Shown: piece after piece, positions 2,054-11,542 of the stretch | Layout of the letters: each line of letters opens with the position of its first letter | Numbering within the stretch: the first letter of the stretch is position 1 | Assembly (NCBI RefSeq): GCF_024345515.1 | Contig: NZ_JAGQBG010000002.1 | Span: forward strand, 1 to 39,412 | Reading direction: 5' to 3' | From: Cyanobium sp. N5-Cardenillas | GTDB lineage: Bacteria > Cyanobacteriota > Cyanobacteriia > PCC-6307 > Cyanobiaceae | Length of the DNA: 39,412 nt | Translations under genes and position numbers: made by a program | The notes under the pieces: model-generated | What the model was told of the DNA's origin: nothing | Databases searched by the model: none | What the model saw: only the letters and a program-made list of their open reading frames with translations

Positions 2054-3115
2054 TCAGGGGATGAAGCGGTCGTAGAGAAGAACACCAGGTGTAATTAATT
2101 CCGAAAAGATTCCGATAACATCCCGAAGGTTGACCACAGCAGAGTCGTAGCAAGCAACAGCATCGGTTGGCATGAGGTAAGGATTGTTTTCGTTACTGCT
2201 GGATCGTCTAAGCAATTCCTCAACACCCTTGTCAAGGGTCGTGGTCTTTCCTGTCGTGGCATCGACCCTCACCAAAACAGCACGTCGATAGGCATTGGTC
2301 AACACTGTGCCACCAGCACAATTGCCTGACACCACAGCATGGGAGAAGCGGGAGCCATAGGGGAAAGAAGTGGCATCGCGACCAATTGCCGAGGTCGCAT
2401 TGCTTGTTGCTGGAACGGTGAGGTTTGAGATATAAATCTTGACGCCCACAGGGGTGATTTGAGACGGACGAACAATCAGGGGATTTTCCTGACCTGTATC
2501 GGGTACTACCACCCGATCCCCGGAGATCAGAGGCACGTCCTTGAAGGGTTCGCCGGTGAAAACACCACTGAGATCTAGCACTCGGCGCTCTTGACCACGT
2601 ATCAACTCCACAGCAGCGACATTGGCAGTGGGTAGCACTCCACCTGCCGAACGTAGCGCTATGGACAGAAAGCGATTGAATGCTCCTTGCCCCCCTTGGG
2701 CAACAGGAACCGTCGTCTGTTCAGAGGGTGTCCATTCGTTGATCAAGACACGACCGGGTTGGAAAGTGGCACCACTGACAAACACTTCTGCCGGGGCCCA
2801 CTGCACCACATTAACACTAACCTTAAGGTATGATGGCTGATAATAGCCATCTCGCACAAGGGTGTGGAAGATACGATCTTGCAACTGATAAGGCTCAAGC
2901 CCCGCAACCTGAATTCCCCGTATAAAGGGGAGCTCAAGCTCTCCATTGAGATTAACTTCAAAGATACCGCTGAATTCCTCACCATCCGGAATTGTGACCT
3001 TGACGCGATCGCCGGGAGAGAGAGGGAGGGCCTTCACGCCACCCAAGGGGAGGCAGAGCATCAAGAGCGTCAGCAGGCGGCAAAACAATCGGCTAGGCAT
3101 ACGAGCTAACGCCAT
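2054..3115 (-). CDS. Wza-like polysaccharide export protein (Poly_export/SLBB)
   Basis: Outer-membrane/periplasmic export protein of the Wza family, which forms the exit channel for capsule or exopolysaccharide. After a signal peptide (MALARMPSRLF followed by a Leu/Cys-rich core and a G-V-K-A cleavage region) comes LPLSPGDRVKVTIPDG, the usual start of the Poly_export domain. A repeated beta-grasp (SLBB-like) part follows (EVFVSGATFQPGRV and later SGDRVVVPDTG). The frame stays open upstream to 3208, but the extra 31 residues do not resemble a leader. I chose the ATG at 3115; the one at 3100 (MPSRLF) is equally possible, and no clear ribosome binding site decides between them. First gene of the minus-strand operon, divergent from the sulfotransferase gene. 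Confidence 0.85.
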   Translation of the reverse strand: MALARMPSRLFCRLLTLLMLCLPLGGVKALPLSPGDRVKVTIPDGEEFSGIFEVNLNGELELPFIRGIQVAGLEPYQLQDRIFHTLVRDGYYQPSYLKVSVNVVQWAPAEVFVSGATFQPGRVLINEWTPSEQTTVPVAQGGQGAFNRFLSIALRSAGGVLPTANVAAVELIRGQERRVLDLSGVFTGEPFKDVPLISGDRVVVPDTGQENPLIVRPSQITPVGVKIYISNLTVPATSNATSAIGRDATSFPYGSRFSHAVVSGNCAGGTVLTNAYRRAVLVRVDATTGKTTTLDKGVEELLRRSSSNENNPYLMPTDAVACYDSAVVNLRDVIGIFSELITPGVLLYDRFIP

Positions 3116-3261
3116 GCATGGGTGAAAGCATCCGTGGACTTGGACCAATGTGACGTTTGCGTCGTTGCACGATGCCTTCGGCATTAAGACTTTAGCGCAG
3201 CAAACCATGGTTCACAACACACTGATGCCCGAGACAAAGGAATCGATTCGGCGCCGCCACC

Positions 3262-3329: not shown

Positions 3330-3568
3330 GTGACCAGACTGCAACGTGGGAGCAAAGGACCGGGAGGGATATCCTTAGAAAGTTCGTTCGCTATCAAGCC
3401 TACGCCAATGATCTCCATTCTGCGAGGATGGAAGTGAGGTGGCAGAATTGATAACGAGCGCTAAGCTCAGAGTGAATCATACCACTCTTACTGATCAGGC
3501 GGATGCAATGCTGCTTGACCCTCGCAACCCTTCCGAGCGATCCCCCCCCATCTTCGTTAGCCTCTGCA

Positions 3569-4375
3569 ATGATCAAGCAGCACTTTATCTACACCGAAGC
3601 CAGAAGCGGAAGCAACTTTTTGGTTGACATCTTCAATCAACACCCCCACTTGGTTAACTATGGAGAGGTTCTGGGAGACTGGACCAAACCCCATAAGCTC
3701 TATCGGGCGATTACAAGAAAGCTGCCTGACATGGCCTATTTGAACTATATTTACACAAGTCGTCTCTTCTACTATCTGTCTCAGTTTTTTTATGCTTATC
3801 AGAACTACAAGAGGCGGAAACCCATTCAATTCAAGTGGTACTCCCAGATAAGCTCCGTCGGTGTCAAAGATTTTCATCATACCTTGCTCAAGTATGGCTT
3901 GCTTGACTTTTTTAGAGCCCATCCCAAGCTCTATATCATCTATCTCTACCGCCAGAACCTCCTCAAGCAGCATGTGTCTCTGGAGGTCATGCGCGCGACT
4001 CGAGTAGTGTCTTCAGAAATGACTCAGGATGGGAAGGCTGTTGCACAGACACAGAGTGCACGAATTCGGGTAGATCCATCCGAGATTCTTGCGGTATTGG
4101 CTAACGCCGAAAAGGAAGTACTAGAGCGTGAGAAGATCCTATGTCGCGTCGATTCAGATCATCTACTGCGTATCTCATATGAAGACCTCTTTGCATCCCC
4201 AAAGTCGCAGGAACAATTCCGTTACCAGGCCTTTAACTTCTTGGGCGTGGAACCCATCGCGGCAACCAGTCGCCAGCGAAAGCTGTCCTCAGATAACTTG
4301 CAAGACTTGATAGAGAATTATGGAGAGCTTTACCAAGCCTTGATAAATACTCCCTTTGCCAAGTATCTCGCGTAG
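3569..4375 (+). CDS. Sulfotransferase-family protein of the polysaccharide locus
   Basis: A 268-residue protein beginning MIKQHFIYTEARSGSNFL. The TEARSGSNFL loop (residues 9-18) matches the PAPS 5'-phosphosulfate-binding loop of sulfotransferases. The IIYLYRQNLLKQHVS segment (123-137, R128 and S137) fits the second PAPS contact, the 3'-phosphate-binding motif. These enzymes transfer sulfate from PAPS to a sugar hydroxyl in the cytoplasm. The open frame extends to 3503, but the extra 22 residues (MQCCLTLATLPS...) do not fit the family, whose PAPS loop lies near the N-terminus, so I take the ATG at 3569. First gene of the plus-strand glycan genes, 41 bp before the flippase candidate. Suggested role: sulfation of the exopolysaccharide. 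The exact acceptor is unknown. Confidence 0.75.
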   Translation: MIKQHFIYTEARSGSNFLVDIFNQHPHLVNYGEVLGDWTKPHKLYRAITRKLPDMAYLNYIYTSRLFYYLSQFFYAYQNYKRRKPIQFKWYSQISSVGVKDFHHTLLKYGLLDFFRAHPKLYIIYLYRQNLLKQHVSLEVMRATRVVSSEMTQDGKAVAQTQSARIRVDPSEILAVLANAEKEVLEREKILCRVDSDHLLRISYEDLFASPKSQEQFRYQAFNFLGVEPIAATSRQRKLSSDNLQDLIENYGELYQALINTPFAKYLA

Positions 4376-4416: not shown

Positions 4417-5691
4417 ATGCCAATCACCTGGTTTAAAAAGAGATTTAAACGTGCAGATAGCACCTTGGTGCGCAATGTAGGTTGGCTTGGAGGATCAACA
4501 GCATTTATACGCGTTTCCAGGCTCCTAGCCACGATCGTCTTGGCCCGGTTTCTAACCAAGTCAGATTATGGCTTGGCAGCTTTAGTAATGACAATTAATG
4601 AGTTTGTTCTTGTCTTTACTCGGAATGGGATTGGGACCAAACTAATTCAAGCAGATTCGAATCATGTCGACAGATTATCTCAAGCAGCTTACTGGCTAAA
4701 TTGGGTTCTTTTTGCTGGATTGTATTGTGCACAGGTCCTCACTGCTTTTGCAGTTGGTTGGATCTACCAGGATCAGCGGCTGATCTTGCCGATTTGTGTT
4801 CTGGGTCTCGTAATGCTAGTGATGCCATTTGGGCTAGTACAAGGAGCGCTCATCCAACGAGAAGGTCGTTTCAAGGTCATTGCTTTGGCTCAGCTGGCCC
4901 AAGTTTCTACTGACAATATACTTTCAGCAATCTTTGCAATTTCTGGCTTTGGACTCTGGGCGATTGTGCTACCAAAAGTATTAGTTGCGCCCATTTGGCT
5001 GATTGTGATGCTGAAACACCATCCATGGAGGCCTCGTGGGAATCCCTCGTCAAAGAACTGGGGTGAGCTCATGGGATTTGGCAGCTCTATCCTAGGGATA
5101 GAGCTAATGCATACATTGCGCAGCAATATGGATTATTTAATCGTTGGGCGCTTCCTCAGCATTGATGCTTTAGGTGTCTACTACTTTGCCTTCAACGCAG
5201 GTGCAGGAATCAGCCTAGGCATCATGAATGCAACCAAGGCGTCCGTCCTGTCTCATTTGTGCGAAGCTCGTGATAATGTTGAACGCTTCAGAGCTCACTA
5301 CTACCAGAGCTTGAAAGTCATGGGATCCGCAGTTGTTCCTCTTGCATTATTGCAATCTACCCTAGCGCCGTTCTATGTACCCATCATCTTCGGTGAGAGA
5401 TGGGAAGGTGCCATCCCAATTCTTATCATCATTTGCCTATCTGTTATTCCCCGTCCCTTTGCTGATGCTGCATCTCAGTTACTGATCGCTATCGATAAAA
5501 CAAAATGGGATTTGAGGTGGAATATGCTTTTCACCGTCCTCTTTGCAGTAGCCTTATTGATCGGGGTTCACTGGCAGGCCATAGGTGTTGCGACTGCCGT
5601 TTTGCTCAGTCACTGGCTGTGTTTGCCACTTTTTACAATCCATGCCTCTCGGATTTCCTTCAAGCATCTAGCCCGTACTCAGAATGCATGA
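4417..5691 (+). CDS. Wzx-like polysaccharide flippase (MOP superfamily)
   Basis: A 424-residue, very hydrophobic protein with about a dozen membrane segments. The N-terminal signature (VRNVGWLGGSTAFIRVSRLL, then LARFLTKSDYGLAAL) is typical of the WzxC/polysaccharide-synthesis branch of the MATE/MOP exporters. These proteins move undecaprenyl-diphosphate-linked repeat units across the inner membrane before polymerisation. It sits between the sulfotransferase and the glycosyltransferases, as expected for a Wzx/Wzy locus. Codon use is strongly A/T-rich: a hand count of 4561-4620 gives 20 G/C of 60. The genes from about 6.3 kb onward are much more GC-rich. Confidence 0.85.
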   Translation: MPITWFKKRFKRADSTLVRNVGWLGGSTAFIRVSRLLATIVLARFLTKSDYGLAALVMTINEFVLVFTRNGIGTKLIQADSNHVDRLSQAAYWLNWVLFAGLYCAQVLTAFAVGWIYQDQRLILPICVLGLVMLVMPFGLVQGALIQREGRFKVIALAQLAQVSTDNILSAIFAISGFGLWAIVLPKVLVAPIWLIVMLKHHPWRPRGNPSSKNWGELMGFGSSILGIELMHTLRSNMDYLIVGRFLSIDALGVYYFAFNAGAGISLGIMNATKASVLSHLCEARDNVERFRAHYYQSLKVMGSAVVPLALLQSTLAPFYVPIIFGERWEGAIPILIIICLSVIPRPFADAASQLLIAIDKTKWDLRWNMLFTVLFAVALLIGVHWQAIGVATAVLLSHWLCLPLFTIHASRISFKHLARTQNA

Positions 5692-5844: not shown

Positions 5845-6870
5845 ATGAAGGTACTGCACATTCTGGCTTCGGGAAGCTCTGGGAAGATCTGCGGCATTCG
5901 CCCCAGCCTGGAGATGCTTGCGAGCTCTCCTTTGGGTGAGCGGCATCTCTTTGCAATGGTCGGTCCGGAAGAGCTGAACAGCACCCTTGAGGACTGGAAT
6001 CCGGATCTGCTGGTATGGCACAAAGCTTGTTCCTGGAGGGGATTGCCAGGCCTGATTCGTCATCGGAAGCACAGGCAGATCCTTTTTGAGCACCACTACT
6101 GCGACGGCTTTGAACGGCACAACGTGCCCTCGACCCTCCGCTTCCGGACGATGCTGCGTCTCTCCTATGGCGCGATGAAGCAGGTGGTGGCCGTGTCCTG
6201 CGCTCAGCATGGCTGGTTGCAGACAGCCCATCTGATCTCAGCATCCAGCAGTCGTCTTCTGCGCTCCTCCCGGACAGTCGACGACTTCCTGTTGCTTCCA
6301 GTAGCGGCTCCAGCAAAGCAACGCCCTCTGACCTTGTTAGCTTACGGGCGGCTCACGCCTCAGAAGGGATTCGACCGTCTGCTGCGGGCCTTGCGCCTGC
6401 TTCCAGGGGGCGGGTTTCGCATGCTGCTGGTCGGCGACGGCCCCCAACAAGACACGCTCAAGGCATTGGCTTCCGACGATGCTCGCGTCGAACTCCTGGG
6501 GGCCCGCAAGGACATCCCCGCGTTGCTGGCCCAGGCTGATGCCGTGGTGATTCCCTCGCGGTGGGAACCCTGGGGAAACGTCTGCCTGGAGGCACGTGCA
6601 GCTGGGAGGCCCGTGATCGTGAGCGATGTGGATGGCCTGCCCGAACAGGTGCTGGGCGTGAGCAATGGAACCGCATCCGCGCGACATGGCGCCTGCGGCC
6701 TGGTGGTGAAGGGAGAGTCAGACCATGCCCTGGCAGCGGCGCTCGACACCTTGCTGACCAGTTCGGCAGGGCAGCGGCACTCCTGGTCGGAAGCAGGGAG
6801 ACGATCCGCTAGAACCGCCTGGAATGACTACCTGGACAACTGGAGCCGCCTCCTTGACGAGCTCACATGA
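5845..6870 (+). CDS. Glycosyltransferase family 4 (GT-B fold)
   Basis: Predicted retaining glycosyltransferase of 342 residues starting MKVLHILASGSSG, the N-terminal Rossmann strand of GT-B enzymes. The C-terminal half has the usual family-1/4 elements: YGRLTPQKGFDRLLRAL, LLVGDGP and the E-x7-E region SRWEPWGNVCLEARAAGRP, which binds the nucleotide-sugar donor. An upstream in-frame start at 5737 would add 36 residues with no similarity to the fold, so the ATG at 5845 is preferred. It ends in an ATGA overlap with the next small ORF. Likely adds one sugar to the lipid-linked repeat unit on the cytoplasmic side. The donor sugar cannot be told from sequence. Base composition shifts to GC-rich within this gene. 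Confidence 0.85.
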   Translation: MKVLHILASGSSGKICGIRPSLEMLASSPLGERHLFAMVGPEELNSTLEDWNPDLLVWHKACSWRGLPGLIRHRKHRQILFEHHYCDGFERHNVPSTLRFRTMLRLSYGAMKQVVAVSCAQHGWLQTAHLISASSSRLLRSSRTVDDFLLLPVAAPAKQRPLTLLAYGRLTPQKGFDRLLRALRLLPGGGFRMLLVGDGPQQDTLKALASDDARVELLGARKDIPALLAQADAVVIPSRWEPWGNVCLEARAAGRPVIVSDVDGLPEQVLGVSNGTASARHGACGLVVKGESDHALAAALDTLLTSSAGQRHSWSEAGRRSARTAWNDYLDNWSRLLDELT

Positions 6871-7133
6871 AGCTGACCTTGATTGCCAGCAGTGACAAAC
6901 CCCCGCCGCAATTCTTTCAAGCAACCCTTGCGCCTTCCGTTGTGCCGCATGAGGGGCCTGTTGGGGCCAGACTGACGTTGATCAAAGATCGGGCAGAGTC
7001 GAACCGGATTCTGATGGTCGCCGATTCCCACTGGCGACCACGCGCGATCGCCGCCATAACGCTGTTGCCGATCGTGGAGCGGCCCATCCTCGCGATTGTC
7101 AGCCTAGAACCATCCACCCTGCCAGCTTCTTGA
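6867..7133 (+). CDS. Uncertain 88-residue ORF bridging two glycosyltransferase genes
   Basis: I do not recognise this protein. It starts at an ATG overlapping the upstream glycosyltransferase stop (ATGA) and its stop overlaps a TTG that starts the next glycosyltransferase (TTGA), the same junction style as the rest of the operon. The translation (MKLTLIASSDKPPPQFF...) has no membrane segment or known motif, and third codon positions look less G/C-biased than the neighbours. An 8-bp hairpin (7015-7040) lies inside it. It may be a small real protein, a translational bridge, or decayed coding sequence between two transferases. Confidence 0.4.
   Translation: MKLTLIASSDKPPPQFFQATLAPSVVPHEGPVGARLTLIKDRAESNRILMVADSHWRPRAIAAITLLPIVERPILAIVSLEPSTLPAS
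7015..7040 (+). repeat. GC-rich 8-bp stem-loop inside the operon
   Basis: TGGTCGCC at 7015-7022 pairs perfectly with GGCGACCA at 7033-7040 across a 10-nt loop. There is no run of T after it, so it is not a standard intrinsic terminator. It could cause transcript pausing or end protection inside the operon. Confidence 0.45.
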
Positions 7134-8074
7134 TCAGGACCCCGAAGCCATCCACACCAAGCATCTCCGTGGTGATGCCGATCCACAATGCAGCTGGCTG
7201 CCTGCGCGAGACTCTGCGTAGTCTCCAGCATCAGAGCCACACCGACTGGGAACTGATCGCCGTCGACGATGGCTCCAGCGATAACAGTGCGGCAATGGTG
7301 AGCGCTGTGGCCCAGGAAGACTCCCGCATTCATTTGCTGCGGCAGCCCAATGCGGGTGTCTCTTGCACACGCAATCGCGGCGTGGCTCTGTGCAAAGCCC
7401 CCCTGATCGCCTTTCTCGACGCCGATGACCTCTGGCATCCCGACAAACTGCGCCTGCATGTGGACTACCATGCCTACCACCCTGAGGTGGGGGTTAGTTA
7501 CGCCCGCGTCGAGTTCCTGTCCCCTGGGGGGACACCTACCGGCCTGCTGGCCGCCGTGCCCCGGTCAGGGCATCGACCAGTGGATTTTCTCTGTGAGAAC
7601 CCCACCAACACCACCTCGAACTGGGTGATCCAGCGGCAGGTCTTTACCTCGGTGGGTGGTTTCGTTTCCGACATGAGCTATTCGGAAGATCTGGAATGGC
7701 TGCTGCGGGTGGCCTGCGATGGTCGTTGGCAGATCGCCGGATTACCCCAGGTGCTGACCTATTACCGCACATCGGCCGGGGGTCTCTCCTCAAGTCTGCA
7801 GCGCATGGAACAAGGTTGGTTGCGGCTGATCCAGGAAGCCCGTCGCTATGCGCCAGAGCTGGTGGCGAAGCACTTCGCCACGGCCCAGGCCATCCACCTG
7901 CGCTACCTGGCCCGGCGCTCCCTGCGCCTGGGAGGAGCCCCCGCCATCGGCACCGATTTCATGCTGCGCTCCCTGCGCTCGGATTGGCGGATCCTGCTGC
8001 GACAGCCGCGCCGTACCGTACTGACGGCACTGGCCGTTTTCGCGCGCCAGCTTCTGGCCCCCTTCCGCCCGTGA
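7130..8074 (+). CDS. Glycosyltransferase family 2 (GT-A fold), first of a tandem pair
   Basis: A 314-residue inverting-type GT2 enzyme. Visible hallmarks are SISVVMPIHNAAGCLRETL at the N-terminus, AVDDGSSDNS for the nucleotide contact and AFLDADDLWHPDK, where the D-A-D is the metal-binding DxD. The start is a TTG overlapping the previous stop; the first ATG in frame lies inside the first beta strand and would truncate the fold. The C-terminal tail (LRYLARRSLRLGG, then SDWRILLRQPRRT) is shared with the next gene, so the two look like diverged duplicates. Likely adds a sugar to the lipid-linked repeat unit in the cytoplasm. Confidence 0.85.
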   Translation: MIRTPKPSTPSISVVMPIHNAAGCLRETLRSLQHQSHTDWELIAVDDGSSDNSAAMVSAVAQEDSRIHLLRQPNAGVSCTRNRGVALCKAPLIAFLDADDLWHPDKLRLHVDYHAYHPEVGVSYARVEFLSPGGTPTGLLAAVPRSGHRPVDFLCENPTNTTSNWVIQRQVFTSVGGFVSDMSYSEDLEWLLRVACDGRWQIAGLPQVLTYYRTSAGGLSSSLQRMEQGWLRLIQEARRYAPELVAKHFATAQAIHLRYLARRSLRLGGAPAIGTDFMLRSLRSDWRILLRQPRRTVLTALAVFARQLLAPFRP

Positions 8075-8084
8075 GCGCACTCCC

Positions 8085-9116
8085 ATGAGCCCATTCCCCC
8101 TGGTCTCGGTGGTGATGCCGCTCTACAACTCCGCCGCCACGGTGAGGGAAAGCCTGGAATCCGTTCTCAGCCAGACCTATCCCAACCTGGAGATCCTGGT
8201 GGTGAACGACGGCTCCACCGATGACGGGGTGGCGATCTGCCAGGGGTACGAGGACGGGCGCGTTCGGGTGGTGCATCAGCAGAACCGGGGACTGGCCGGG
8301 GCACGGAACACCGGCATCCGGCAGGCCAAAGGGGAGTTCCTGGGGTTTCTGGACAGCGATGACCTGTGGCTGCCCTCCAAGGTGGAGCGCCATGTGGCCC
8401 ATCTGCAGGCCCGACCGGAGGTGGGTGTCAGCTTTTCCCGCTCCGGATTCATTGATGAGAGCTCCAGGCCGATCGGGATCTACCAGATGCCGAGGCTGCA
8501 GGACATCACCCCGGAGATCGTCTTCTGCCGCAACCCGATCGGCAATGGTTCGGCGGTGGTGATCCGCCGGGACGTCTTCGCCGCCATTCGCTTTGAAGCG
8601 AATCTCTATGGCGACGTGGAAGACTTCTACTTTGACGACACCTTTCGACAGTCCGAAGACATCGAGTGCTGGCTGCGGATTGCGCTCCAGACCCACTGGC
8701 GCATCGAGGGCATCCCCGAGGCACTGACGCTCTACCGCATCAGTGACGGCGGACTCTCGGCCAACCTGATGAAGCAGTACGCCTCCTGGGAGCGGGTTCT
8801 GCTCAAGACCGAAACCAGCCACCCGGACTTCGTCGCCCAATGGGGTTCCAGGGCCCGCGCCTATCAGCTGCGCTACCTGGCCCGCCGGGCCACCCGCCAG
8901 CGGGACGGCGCCCTGGCCGTGCGCCTGCTGCACCAATCCCTGGCCACCGACTGGAGGGTGCTGCTGGAGGAACCGCGACGCACCCTGATCACCCTCCTGG
9001 CCGCCTACCTGCTGCTGGTGTTGCCCGAAGGCCCCTATCGCTGGCTGGAGGGCCGGATGCTGCGCTCGACGGGGGCCAGCCAGCAGCGACGCATGCGCGG
9101 GGAACTCGGCCGATGA
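8085..9116 (+). CDS. Glycosyltransferase family 2 (GT-A fold), second of a tandem pair
   Basis: A 343-residue GT2 enzyme with VSVVMPLYNSAATVRESLES, VVNDGSTDDG and GFLDSDDLWLPSKVERH carrying the D-S-D metal motif. After the catalytic domain it has the same extension as the upstream gene (LRYLARRATRQ, then TDWRVLLEEPRRT), supporting tandem duplication followed by divergence. Relative to its partner it carries a longer insert around residues 165-185 (EANLYGDVEDFYFDD). It begins 10 bp after the previous stop and ends in an ATGA overlap with the Alg14-like gene. Probably a second sugar-adding step in the same repeat unit. Confidence 0.87.
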   Translation: MSPFPLVSVVMPLYNSAATVRESLESVLSQTYPNLEILVVNDGSTDDGVAICQGYEDGRVRVVHQQNRGLAGARNTGIRQAKGEFLGFLDSDDLWLPSKVERHVAHLQARPEVGVSFSRSGFIDESSRPIGIYQMPRLQDITPEIVFCRNPIGNGSAVVIRRDVFAAIRFEANLYGDVEDFYFDDTFRQSEDIECWLRIALQTHWRIEGIPEALTLYRISDGGLSANLMKQYASWERVLLKTETSHPDFVAQWGSRARAYQLRYLARRATRQRDGALAVRLLHQSLATDWRVLLEEPRRTLITLLAAYLLLVLPEGPYRWLEGRMLRSTGASQQRRMRGELGR

Positions 9117-9568
9117 AAGTCCTGCTGGTCTGCTCGTCAGGGGGGCATTTCAAGGCGCTGCAGCAGCTGGCCGATTTCTGGCAGCGCCATCCCCACCTGT
9201 GGGTCACGTTTCGAACGGCCACCACGGAAACGGCCCTGGCCCAGGACCATGTGCTCTGGGCCCACAGCCCCACGAACCGCAACCTGCCGAATCTGCTGCG
9301 CAACCTCTGGCTGGCCCTTCAGGTGATCCGCAGCGAGCGGCCGGACGTGATCCTCTCCACCGGCGCAGGAGTGGCCGTTCCCTTTCTTCTGATCGGTAAA
9401 CTGTTCGGATGCAAGACCGTGTTCATCGAGTCCGTGACCCGCATTCAAACGCTCAGTCTTTCGGCCCGACTCGTCCATCCGTGTCTTGATATTCTCTACG
9501 TTCACTGGCCCCAGCTGCAGCTTCGTTATCCCCGGGCCGAACTTGTCCAGAGCAAGATCGGCTCATGA
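9113..9568 (+). CDS. Alg14/PssD-like glycosyltransferase subunit
   Basis: A 151-residue protein with MKVLLVCSSGGHFKALQQL at the start, the glycine-rich acceptor-domain loop of Alg14/PssD proteins, followed by SERPDVILSTGAGVAVPFLL and TVFIESVTRI. Alg14-type subunits hold the N-terminal half of a split GT-B transferase and recruit the Alg13-type catalytic partner to the membrane. That partner is the next gene, overlapping by ATGA. The frame stays open far upstream, but that stretch is the GT2 gene in another frame. The start at 9113 restores the operon's ATGA pattern. Confidence 0.87.
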   Translation: MKVLLVCSSGGHFKALQQLADFWQRHPHLWVTFRTATTETALAQDHVLWAHSPTNRNLPNLLRNLWLALQVIRSERPDVILSTGAGVAVPFLLIGKLFGCKTVFIESVTRIQTLSLSARLVHPCLDILYVHWPQLQLRYPRAELVQSKIGS

Positions 9569-10044
9569 TTCTCGTCAGTGTCGGTACGGAGCAGTTCCCC
9601 TTCAACCGGCTGATGCAGTGGGTTGAGCTGCTGATCCAACAGGAACTTATCAACGAAGACATCATTGTTCAGTACGGTACTTGGACCTTTCTTCCCAGTG
9701 GCACCACGGTTTATCGGTTGGTGAAGGAAGACACCTTTCGATCACTGATTCGGAAAGCACGGGTGGTGATTGCCCATTGCGGTGAGGGCACGGTGCTGTT
9801 GCTTGATGAGATGCAGCAGCCCTTCATCCTTGTGCCACGCAGCGTTCGCTATCAGGAGCATGTCGACGACCACCAGGTGGAACTCGCCCTGGCCCTGGCG
9901 GAAATGGGTGTACCGATTGCCTGGAGTCCGGGTGATCTGGTTCGCTTTCTCCAGGCCCCGTTCAAGACCTCCATCAGTGACGTGACGGACAGTTCGGCCC
10001 AGTCCCTGTGTCGCAGTCTCCAGAGCCATTTTTCTCCGACATGA
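9565..10044 (+). CDS. Alg13/PssE-like glycosyltransferase subunit (GT28 C-terminal domain)
   Basis: A 159-residue protein with the GT28 C-terminal domain. MILVSVGTEQFPFNRLMQWV is the first strand, VVIAHCGEGTVLLL replaces the usual S-H-A-G-x-G donor loop, and PFILVPRSVRYQEHVDDHQ matches the donor-binding helix of Alg13, MurG and PssE. Together with the Alg14-like subunit it should form one active transferase at the inner membrane, adding GlcNAc-, glucuronic-acid- or glucose-type sugars in characterised relatives. It ends in ATGA with the STAS-sugar transferase gene. Confidence 0.87.
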   Translation: MILVSVGTEQFPFNRLMQWVELLIQQELINEDIIVQYGTWTFLPSGTTVYRLVKEDTFRSLIRKARVVIAHCGEGTVLLLDEMQQPFILVPRSVRYQEHVDDHQVELALALAEMGVPIAWSPGDLVRFLQAPFKTSISDVTDSSAQSLCRSLQSHFSPT

Positions 10045-11045
10045 TGGCTCGCCCGTCCCCCTCCCAGTCTGCTTTCGTCAGGACCGTCCAGAACGGCATC
10101 CTGTTCCTCCATCTGCCCCCCAGGCTCACCGTCAGCGAAGCCGTGGCCTTGCGTGCCGGGTTCGCCGACTGGCTGGCTGAGGTGGATGGTCTGCGGCAGG
10201 TGGTCCTGGATTTCGGCCGCACCGCCATCATCGACAGCAGCGGCATTGGCGCCCTGGTGGGCGCCATCAAAACCGCCCAGCAGCACGCCATTCCTCTCAG
10301 TGCCTGGAGCCTGCACCGGCAGGTGTTCCTGGCGCTGCAGATGACGGGGCTGGAGAAGGTGCTGCCGGTGGCGGCCCATTCCGAGGGCCTGCTTCCCCAG
10401 CTCTCGCACGTCGAAGATCAACGCCCACCCCTGACGCACCCATCGGTGCGTTCCGGACTCAAGCGGTTCATGGACATCTGTGGTGCGCTGATCGGACTTG
10501 GCGTCACGGCGTTGCTGTTCCTGCCGCTGGCGTTGGTTATCCGTCTGGACAGCCCGGGGCCGATCCTGTTCAGCCAGGTTCGCTGCGGCTGGATGGGCCG
10601 CCATTTCCGCATCTGGAAGTTCCGCTCGATGGTCAGCAATGCCGAGACACTCAAAGGCACCGTGGCGAACCAGGCCCAGGGCGCCTTCTTCAAGAACGAC
10701 AACGACCCAAGGATCACCAGGGTGGGCCGGATCCTGCGCAAGACCAGCCTGGATGAGCTGCCCCAGTTCTGGAATGTGCTGATCGGTGACATGAGCCTGA
10801 TCGGAACCCGGCCCGCCACACCCGACGAGGTCCTTCGCTATGCCATTCCAAGCTGGCAGCGATTCGATGTGCGCCCCGGGCTCAGTGGCGAATGGCAGGT
10901 GAGTGGCAGGTCATCAATCCGTGATTTTGAAGATGTGATCAGGCTCGATCTCAGGTACCAACAGAATTGGAGCCTGGGCTATGATCTGAAACTCATCGTC
11001 AAGACGTTCCTTGTCCTGCTGAGCAAGGATTCGGGGGCCGCGTGA
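10041..11045 (+). CDS. STAS domain fused to priming sugar-phosphate transferase (WbaP/PssY-like)
   Basis: A 334-residue two-domain protein. Residues about 10-115 form a STAS domain of the SpoIIAA/RsbV type; IIDSSGIGALVG (63-74) carries the D-S-S-G loop whose serine is phosphorylated in anti-sigma antagonists. From about 137 onward it is a bacterial sugar transferase: a membrane segment near 145-168, DSPGPILFSQVRCG, KFRSMVSNAE, the D-E catalytic pair in SLDELPQFWNVL (D238-E239), MSLIGTRPA and RPGLSGEWQVSGR. Such enzymes load the first sugar-1-phosphate onto undecaprenyl phosphate, committing the cell to polymer synthesis. The ATG at 10041 gives an ATGA overlap with the previous stop. The next gene is an anti-sigma-type kinase overlapping by GTGA. 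Inference: kinase binding or serine phosphorylation gates priming activity. Confidence 0.9.
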   Translation: MMARPSPSQSAFVRTVQNGILFLHLPPRLTVSEAVALRAGFADWLAEVDGLRQVVLDFGRTAIIDSSGIGALVGAIKTAQQHAIPLSAWSLHRQVFLALQMTGLEKVLPVAAHSEGLLPQLSHVEDQRPPLTHPSVRSGLKRFMDICGALIGLGVTALLFLPLALVIRLDSPGPILFSQVRCGWMGRHFRIWKFRSMVSNAETLKGTVANQAQGAFFKNDNDPRITRVGRILRKTSLDELPQFWNVLIGDMSLIGTRPATPDEVLRYAIPSWQRFDVRPGLSGEWQVSGRSSIRDFEDVIRLDLRYQQNWSLGYDLKLIVKTFLVLLSKDSGAA

Positions 11046-11542
11046 ATTCAGGCTTGCCAGTGGATTCACGGCCAACCAAGCGTGAACTTGCCGTCAACAG
11101 CGACCTTGACGAACTGGAGAGCGTACTCACCTGGTTTGAGCGACAAGGCCACCCTGACGTTCCTTCGGATCTATGGATGCAGGCACAGTTGGCACTTGTG
11201 GAAGGCTTCACCAATGCCGTTCGTCATGCCCATGCCCACCTCGCAGCGCCCCAACAGGTTCACCTTTCCCTGCAGATCACCAGCCAGGCGTTCTGCCTTC
11301 AGGTCATCGATCACGGTGAACCCTTCGACTTCACTGCGGCACTGGCAAGGGTGGAAGCGGAGATCACAGCCAGTGGGCAGAATCCTTTGGCCCGTGAGGC
11401 CCATTGGGGACTGGTGATGTTTCTGAAGCTTCAGAAGGAGTACGGATGGACGATCAGCCATTGCAGACGCGATGACGGGCGCAACGAACTCTCCCTGAGC
11501 CACCCTCTCAGGGCCGATGAATCGGCTGATGGGTCATACTGA
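11042..11542 (+). CDS. RsbW/SpoIIAB-like GHKL serine kinase (partner-switch kinase)
   Basis: A 166-residue HATPase_c protein with the short, single-domain layout of anti-sigma serine kinases. The N box is ALVEGFTNAVRHAH (E54, N58), the G1 box VIDHGEPFD (D90, G92) and the G2-like region REAHWGLVMF (G123). No sensor, histidine-phosphorylation or receiver domain is present, so it is not a two-component kinase. It starts at a GTG that overlaps the STAS-transferase stop (GTGA), which implies coupled translation. Known relatives phosphorylate STAS-domain serines and bind the unphosphorylated partner. Here the obvious partner is the fused STAS domain next door. No sigma factor or PP2C phosphatase gene is in the window, so the opposing activity must lie elsewhere. 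Confidence 0.85.
   Translation: MNSGLPVDSRPTKRELAVNSDLDELESVLTWFERQGHPDVPSDLWMQAQLALVEGFTNAVRHAHAHLAAPQQVHLSLQITSQAFCLQVIDHGEPFDFTAALARVEAEITASGQNPLAREAHWGLVMFLKLQKEYGWTISHCRRDDGRNELSLSHPLRADESADGSY

Follow-up and report, generated by a model that had tools for sequence, protein, structure and literature searches.

The 39,412-nucleotide window analyzed here (contig C112 of the fragmented, 2.59-Mb and 85% complete assembly of Cyanobium sp. N5-Cardenillas) encodes a STAS domain fused to a monotopic sugar-phosphate transferase, and the next gene, which overlaps it, encodes a SpoIIAB-like kinase. The arrangement is real, the pairing of the two genes is not due to chance, and the observation is stronger than the first-pass annotation had stated. 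It is very likely that the kinase and the STAS domain are partners, as predicted, and we lean slightly toward a direct control of the transferase by this module.

The fusion gene (10041..11045, + strand) encodes a protein of 334 amino acids, a putative priming enzyme, with PF01740 (E 2e-10, over the cut-off) and PF02397 (E 5e-63) on one open reading frame. The STAS domain covers residues 15 to 113 (10083..10379, +) and the Bac_transf catalytic domain residues 141 to 327 (10461..11021, +); in phmmer searches the protein matched WbaP (8t53), PglC (8e37) and SpoIIAA (1th8_B). The phospho-acceptor motif D65-S66-S67-G68 (10233..10244, +), preceded by I64, was found with the Ser66/Ser67 numbering of the annotation, and it is invariant in 11 fusions of the genus. 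The kinase gene (11042..11542, +) starts with GTG and encodes a single-domain GHKL/HATPase_c_2 serine-kinase-like protein of 166 amino acids (PF13581, E 3e-14). The GTGA overlap between the fusion stop and the kinase start lies at 11042-11045, as annotated, and the junction is ATGA at this position in most close relatives.

Both genes are the last of an exopolysaccharide (EPS) cluster on the + strand, with further gene overlaps at the PssD/PssE and PssE/fusion junctions. The cluster encodes a sulfotransferase-like protein (3503..4375; PF13469, just under the cut-off), a Wzx-type flippase (4417..5691; PF13440), a GT4 glycosyltransferase (5845..6870, start approximate; PF00534), two GT2 glycosyltransferases (7130..8074 and 8085..9116; PF00535), a PssD-like glycosyltransferase half (9113..9568; NF041549 PssD over the cut-off, PF08660) and a PssE-like half (9565..10044; PF04101 and synteny, with NF041548 PssE below its cut-off). 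The second GT2 gene keeps its syntenic position at most of the paired loci of Cyanobium/Synechococcus and Nostoc. On the - strand, a gene for an outer-membrane polysaccharide export (OPX) protein (2054..3208; PF02563) adjoins a 503-amino-acid open reading frame (535-2046) that had no Pfam match and is perhaps a part of the export machinery. Its family and gene context suggest that the fusion primes the EPS repeat unit.

The transferase half has the features of a small monotopic phosphoglycosyl transferase (monoPGT): the PF02397 Bac_transf domain, a re-entrant helix, and the Asp-Glu dyad in the motif SLDELPQ, whose D238 and E239 are invariant. Matches to the large monoPGTs of the WbaP/WcaJ type were restricted to the C-terminal part of TIGR03022, TIGR03023 and TIGR03025, all below cut-off. 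Since the fusion lacks the transmembrane (TM) and CoA-binding-like N-terminus of WbaP/WcaJ, it is best described as a small monoPGT core preceded by a STAS domain. The AF2 model of the fusion had a mean pLDDT of 62.6, with a good STAS part and a poor transferase part (<50 in places), so it says nothing about the interface between the STAS and catalytic domains; despite the poor transferase model, the C-terminus matched PglC and WbaP in Foldseek. In the STAS part, the model places b1 at residues 13-17, b2 at 20-24, a1 at 31-47, b3 at 53-57 and a2 at 66-81. Foldseek aligned this half with SpoIIAA chains of SpoIIAB complexes (rmsd about 1.9), and RsbV was also matched, so the STAS fold that the annotation had read from the sequence is present by Pfam and by structure. 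Ser66 is the first residue of helix a2, where SpoIIAA has its phospho-serine; a STAS fold with a phosphorylatable serine starting helix 2 is what a partner-switch protein should have.

A sequence-only PDB search with the kinase gave chance matches alone; the fold search with its AF2 model (pLDDT 86.8) gave SpoIIAB, from the SpoIIAB:SpoIIAA complex, as best match (1th8_A, E 6e-7); Usfx and RsbW (6m37) ranked high as well. Annotation as RsbW by NCBIfam equivalogs was rejected, the scores being far below the curated cut-offs (NF003144, 23.5 bits vs 145; TIGR01924, 17.3 vs 155). Of the N, G1 and G2 boxes annotated in this protein, the first two are canonical: the N box EGFTNAVRHA (11201..11230, +) contains E54 and N58, which are invariant in 58 relatives, and the G1 box D90-H-G-E-P-F (11309..11326, +) contains D90 and G92, also invariant. 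The G2 box is atypical, H121-W-G-L (11402..11413, +). It is of the HWG type in the kinases of the Cyanobium/Synechococcus group and similar in a Nostoc locus (L085), and GRGL in most wider relatives. Conservation of Glu54, Asn58 and Asp90 makes ATP binding by the window kinase plausible; its G2 box, HWGL and not GRGL, makes phosphotransfer uncertain. Judging from the motif, HWGL may weaken ATP binding or phosphotransfer in this clade, and the window kinase is possibly a binding-only switch.

The fusion and the adjoining kinase were recovered across cyanobacteria. In the genus, the full fusion is encoded by 14 of the 42 genomes, and one more genome (L018, L079) has an intact kinase gene next to a fusion whose STAS and transferase halves are out of frame with each other, which looks like a frameshift or an assembly error. 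The kinase is directly downstream in all 15 of these loci, with only six PF13581 matches in the entire 2.59-Mb assembly. In a phylum-wide sample of 386 genomes, full fusions occur in many families of the class Cyanobacteriia, and matches in the other classes were at transferase strength level, no more. A kinase lies within 2.5 kb of 78 of the 135 distinct full fusions, and 57 have no linked kinase; 76 of the 78 are readable same-strand pairs, and 59 pairs are non-redundant. Linkage at these frequencies (15/15 and 78/135) rules out a chance neighborhood, and the pairing in relatives expected from the annotation is therefore borne out. A match on a Deinococcus plasmid (H8) was rejected as a non-cyanobacterial fusion, its N-terminus being GT4-like and not STAS.

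The order GT2-PssD-PssE-fusion-kinase is common to Cyanobium/Synechococcus and Nostoc loci. In Microcoleaceae and Symploca-type loci a DUF3318 gene lies just upstream of the pair (L126:5411-6076, L116:3135-3782 and others; 9 of 102 neighboring proteins). In Nostoc parmelioides (L085:9197-14545) the genes after the pair encode a lone STAS protein and a 1783-amino-acid Pkinase-AAA-GAF-histidine kinase.

In the fusion tree, 31 Nostocaceae fusions without linked kinase form a clade nested in a backbone whose lineages mostly have the linkage, which is consistent with, and does not prove, a secondary loss of linkage. The fusion-linked kinases fall in clades apart from the kinases of STAS-PP2C-kinase (Hmp/IcfG-like) clusters (branch 98/90). 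The one exception to this separation, L142, was left out of the dedicated pairs because its kinase belongs to an adjoining STAS-PP2C-kinase cluster. A second tree, with Nostocaceae kinases added, did not resolve the deep branches, and we therefore make no claim that all fusion-linked kinases share one origin. In a mirror-tree comparison of STAS and kinase, controlled for the transferase, the partial r was 0.10, and 46 of 500 permutations were as high; the kinase correlated better with the transferase than with the STAS domain, whose distances are near saturation.

At five Oscillatoriales-type loci (L097, L099, L102, L104 and L140) a SpoIIE-type PP2C phosphatase gene directly follows the fusion and kinase genes on the same strand; the two of these phosphatases that were scanned individually have PAS or PAS plus GAF sensor domains. 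By their domain content, the five loci encode a full predicted substrate-kinase-phosphatase set, the STAS partner being the transferase. The window genome has three SpoIIE phosphatases, all in trans to the pair: one in a STAS-kinase-PP2C cluster on contig C5, one in a pair of STAS and RR-PP2C genes on C25, and one on C178.

The recurrent families among the 102 proteins encoded next to the pairs included glycosyltransferases, DUF3318 and SpoIIE; no sigma family was found among those with at least two members, a threshold at which a single case could be missed. Nor was a sigma-factor gene found in the same operon in the window, where the annotated cluster consists of EPS genes. The annotation had proposed a switch without a sigma factor, and these neighborhoods agree with it; against it stands Slr1861 of Synechocystis, a proven anti-sigma factor from the same phylum. 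This SpoIIAB-type kinase binds SigC and has the STAS protein Ssr1600 as its phosphorylation substrate; the three form the only classical partner switch shown in cyanobacteria (PMC12329169). This precedent, together with SpoIIAB, Usfx and RsbW as the closest folds to the kinase, leaves some room for a sigma output. The kinase would then be an anti-sigma factor and the fusion a membrane-tethered anti-anti-sigma factor; free transferase-STAS protein would sequester the kinase and release sigma, and the abundance of the EPS machinery would feed back on transcription. We consider this unlikely, given the lack of a recurrent sigma family near the pairs, the position of the linked kinases outside the clade of STAS-PP2C-linked kinases, and the covalent joining of the STAS domain to a biosynthetic enzyme in many families. 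The window pair resembles SpoIIAA/SpoIIAB and RsbV/RsbW in combining a DSSG-bearing STAS fold with a GHKL kinase fold, whereas those systems have a single-domain STAS protein and a sigma output. With HmpU/HmpV/HmpW and IcfG/Slr1861/Ssr1600 it shares the kinase superfamily and the phylum, but in these the kinases form a separate clade and the STAS proteins are separate.

The acceptor motif is DSSG in 130 of 133 readable fusions (the exceptions are DSSA in two and DSCG in one), and its first serine is present in all 133. DSSG occurs in 76 of 76 readable kinase-linked fusions and in 54 of 57 orphan fusions. All three deviants, and also XssP of Synechocystis PCC 6803 (DSAA), lack a linked kinase, with the caution that these numbers are small and not independent. 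XssP (plasmid pSYSM, L239:13989-14942) has PF01740 and PF02397 in the same order, and the window fusion is 48% identical to it over 94% of the query; it differs in its motif and in having no kinase nearby. Deletion of xssP abolishes synechan and bloom formation (PMC8205485), and the synechan pathway is functional when moved into S. elongatus (PMC13125312). XssP is thus functional, also in another host, and a linked kinase must be dispensable for activity in some members.

Such observations would suit a STAS domain that is mainly a scaffold or dimerization module, replacing the TM and nucleotide-sensing parts of large PGTs, with the clade's kinase a non-catalytic binder or acting on other STAS proteins. 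The atypical G2 box of the window clade, the 57 kinase-orphan fusions and the function of XssP with an eroded motif (PMC8205485) point this way. However, conservation of DSSG in linked and orphan fusions alike goes beyond the need of a scaffold, and the invariant E54, N58, D90 and G92 of the kinase and the PP2C linkage at five loci also count against it, and we regard this explanation as quite improbable.

Two orphan fusions have a single-domain STAS gene directly after them (L216, L219). Ten Nostocaceae genomes with an orphan fusion were tested, and nine of them (L245-L250, L254-L256) carry an unlinked kinase, all of one clade, with no STAS, PP2C or transferase found beside it; it is a candidate trans partner of the orphan fusion. 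Such kinases, the other modules of the window genome on C5, C25 and C178, and the common substrates of Slr1861 and PmgA (PMC12329169) could also fit a cross-wired network like that of Slr1861, PmgA and IcfG, in which the fusion is one of several substrates of shared kinases and phosphatases and linkage ensures stoichiometry only, but the overlapping genes and the separate kinase clades suggest a preferred partner and make this very unlikely.

The explanation that we favor, by a small margin, is direct gating of the transferase, which is supported by the domains and folds, the conserved pairing, the separate kinase clades, the PP2C linkage and the acceptor serine in 133 of 133 readable fusions, and also by the GT2-PssD-PssE-fusion-kinase synteny, the lack of a recurrent sigma family, and the precedents of enzyme-output switches and of EpsW/EpsZ. 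The HWGL G2 box, the 57 orphan fusions, the function of XssP without a kinase, and the action of Slr1861 on SigC count against it. In this model, a partner switch has its STAS component built into the enzyme that begins exopolysaccharide synthesis. The sugar-phosphate transferase core would be embedded in the membrane, with the STAS domain next to it on the cytoplasmic side, and the product of the overlapping kinase gene would dock on the STAS face around Ser66. Docking, phosphorylation of Ser66, or both would alter the transferase through its dimerization, its access, or its assembly with PssD/PssE and Wzx, so that polymer output would be gated at the first committed step. A PP2C would reset the switch, from next door in some relatives and in trans in the window genome. 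By analogy with SypA and SiaC, our guess is that the kinase keeps the enzyme off and that the enzyme is active when its STAS domain is unphosphorylated or free. Binding, phosphorylation, the effect on the transferase and the sign of that effect are all inferred here.

Switch proteins that control an enzyme, and thereby affect biofilm or polysaccharide, are known: SiaC/SiaD (of SiaABCD) and HsbA/HsbD in Pseudomonas, and BgrV/BgrR in Sinorhizobium (PMC8457831). Unlike the window fusion, they have a diguanylate cyclase output and an unfused switch protein. In Myxococcus xanthus, EpsW activates the priming monoPGT EpsZ post-translationally (PMC12802240); this involves a response-regulator protein in trans and a large monoPGT, and neither STAS nor a serine kinase.

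The annotation knew of no description of this arrangement in cyanobacteria, which holds for one part of it. Fusions of this architecture, with N-terminal STAS and C-terminal Bac_transf on one chain as in the window protein, are already known from all4160 of Anabaena PCC 7120, which is published, and, by sequence, from XssP. The description of all4160 reportedly goes back to Wang et al. 2007. Passages on all4160 in two later papers present it as a STAS-glycosyltransferase required for heterocyst envelope polysaccharide (PMC8256260, PMC4390870). It is like the window fusion in being a cyanobacterial sugar transferase with an N-terminal STAS domain that is needed for a polysaccharide; unlike the window, no kinase linkage is described in those passages, and all4160 probably belongs to the Nostocaceae clade that lacks a linked kinase. 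STAS goes unmentioned in the main text of the two synechan papers (PMC8205485, PMC13125312). The linked kinase and phosphatase appear to be undescribed so far: we found no report of a kinase paired with a STAS-transferase fusion in the open-licence literature, to which our search was mostly limited.

More tentatively than the gating itself, we propose a sigma-free class of cyanobacterial switches in which a dedicated SpoIIAB-like kinase and a PP2C directly gate a priming enzyme through its fused STAS domain, with one subgroup having a largely non-catalytic, binding-only kinase (HWGL lid). The output of such a partner switch would be an enzyme, with effector and STAS domain on a single chain, and monoPGTs would have a second route of post-translational control besides EpsW/EpsZ. 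It also offers a candidate class of targets for cyanobacterial partner switches of unknown target, such as HmpV; the Hmp system affects hormogonium motility and polysaccharide (PMC8256260). For the XssP- and all4160-type enzymes used in polysaccharide engineering, the acceptor serine would be a candidate phospho-site. If the proposal is true, slime, sheath and heterocyst-envelope polysaccharide would be controlled at the priming enzyme, without new transcription.
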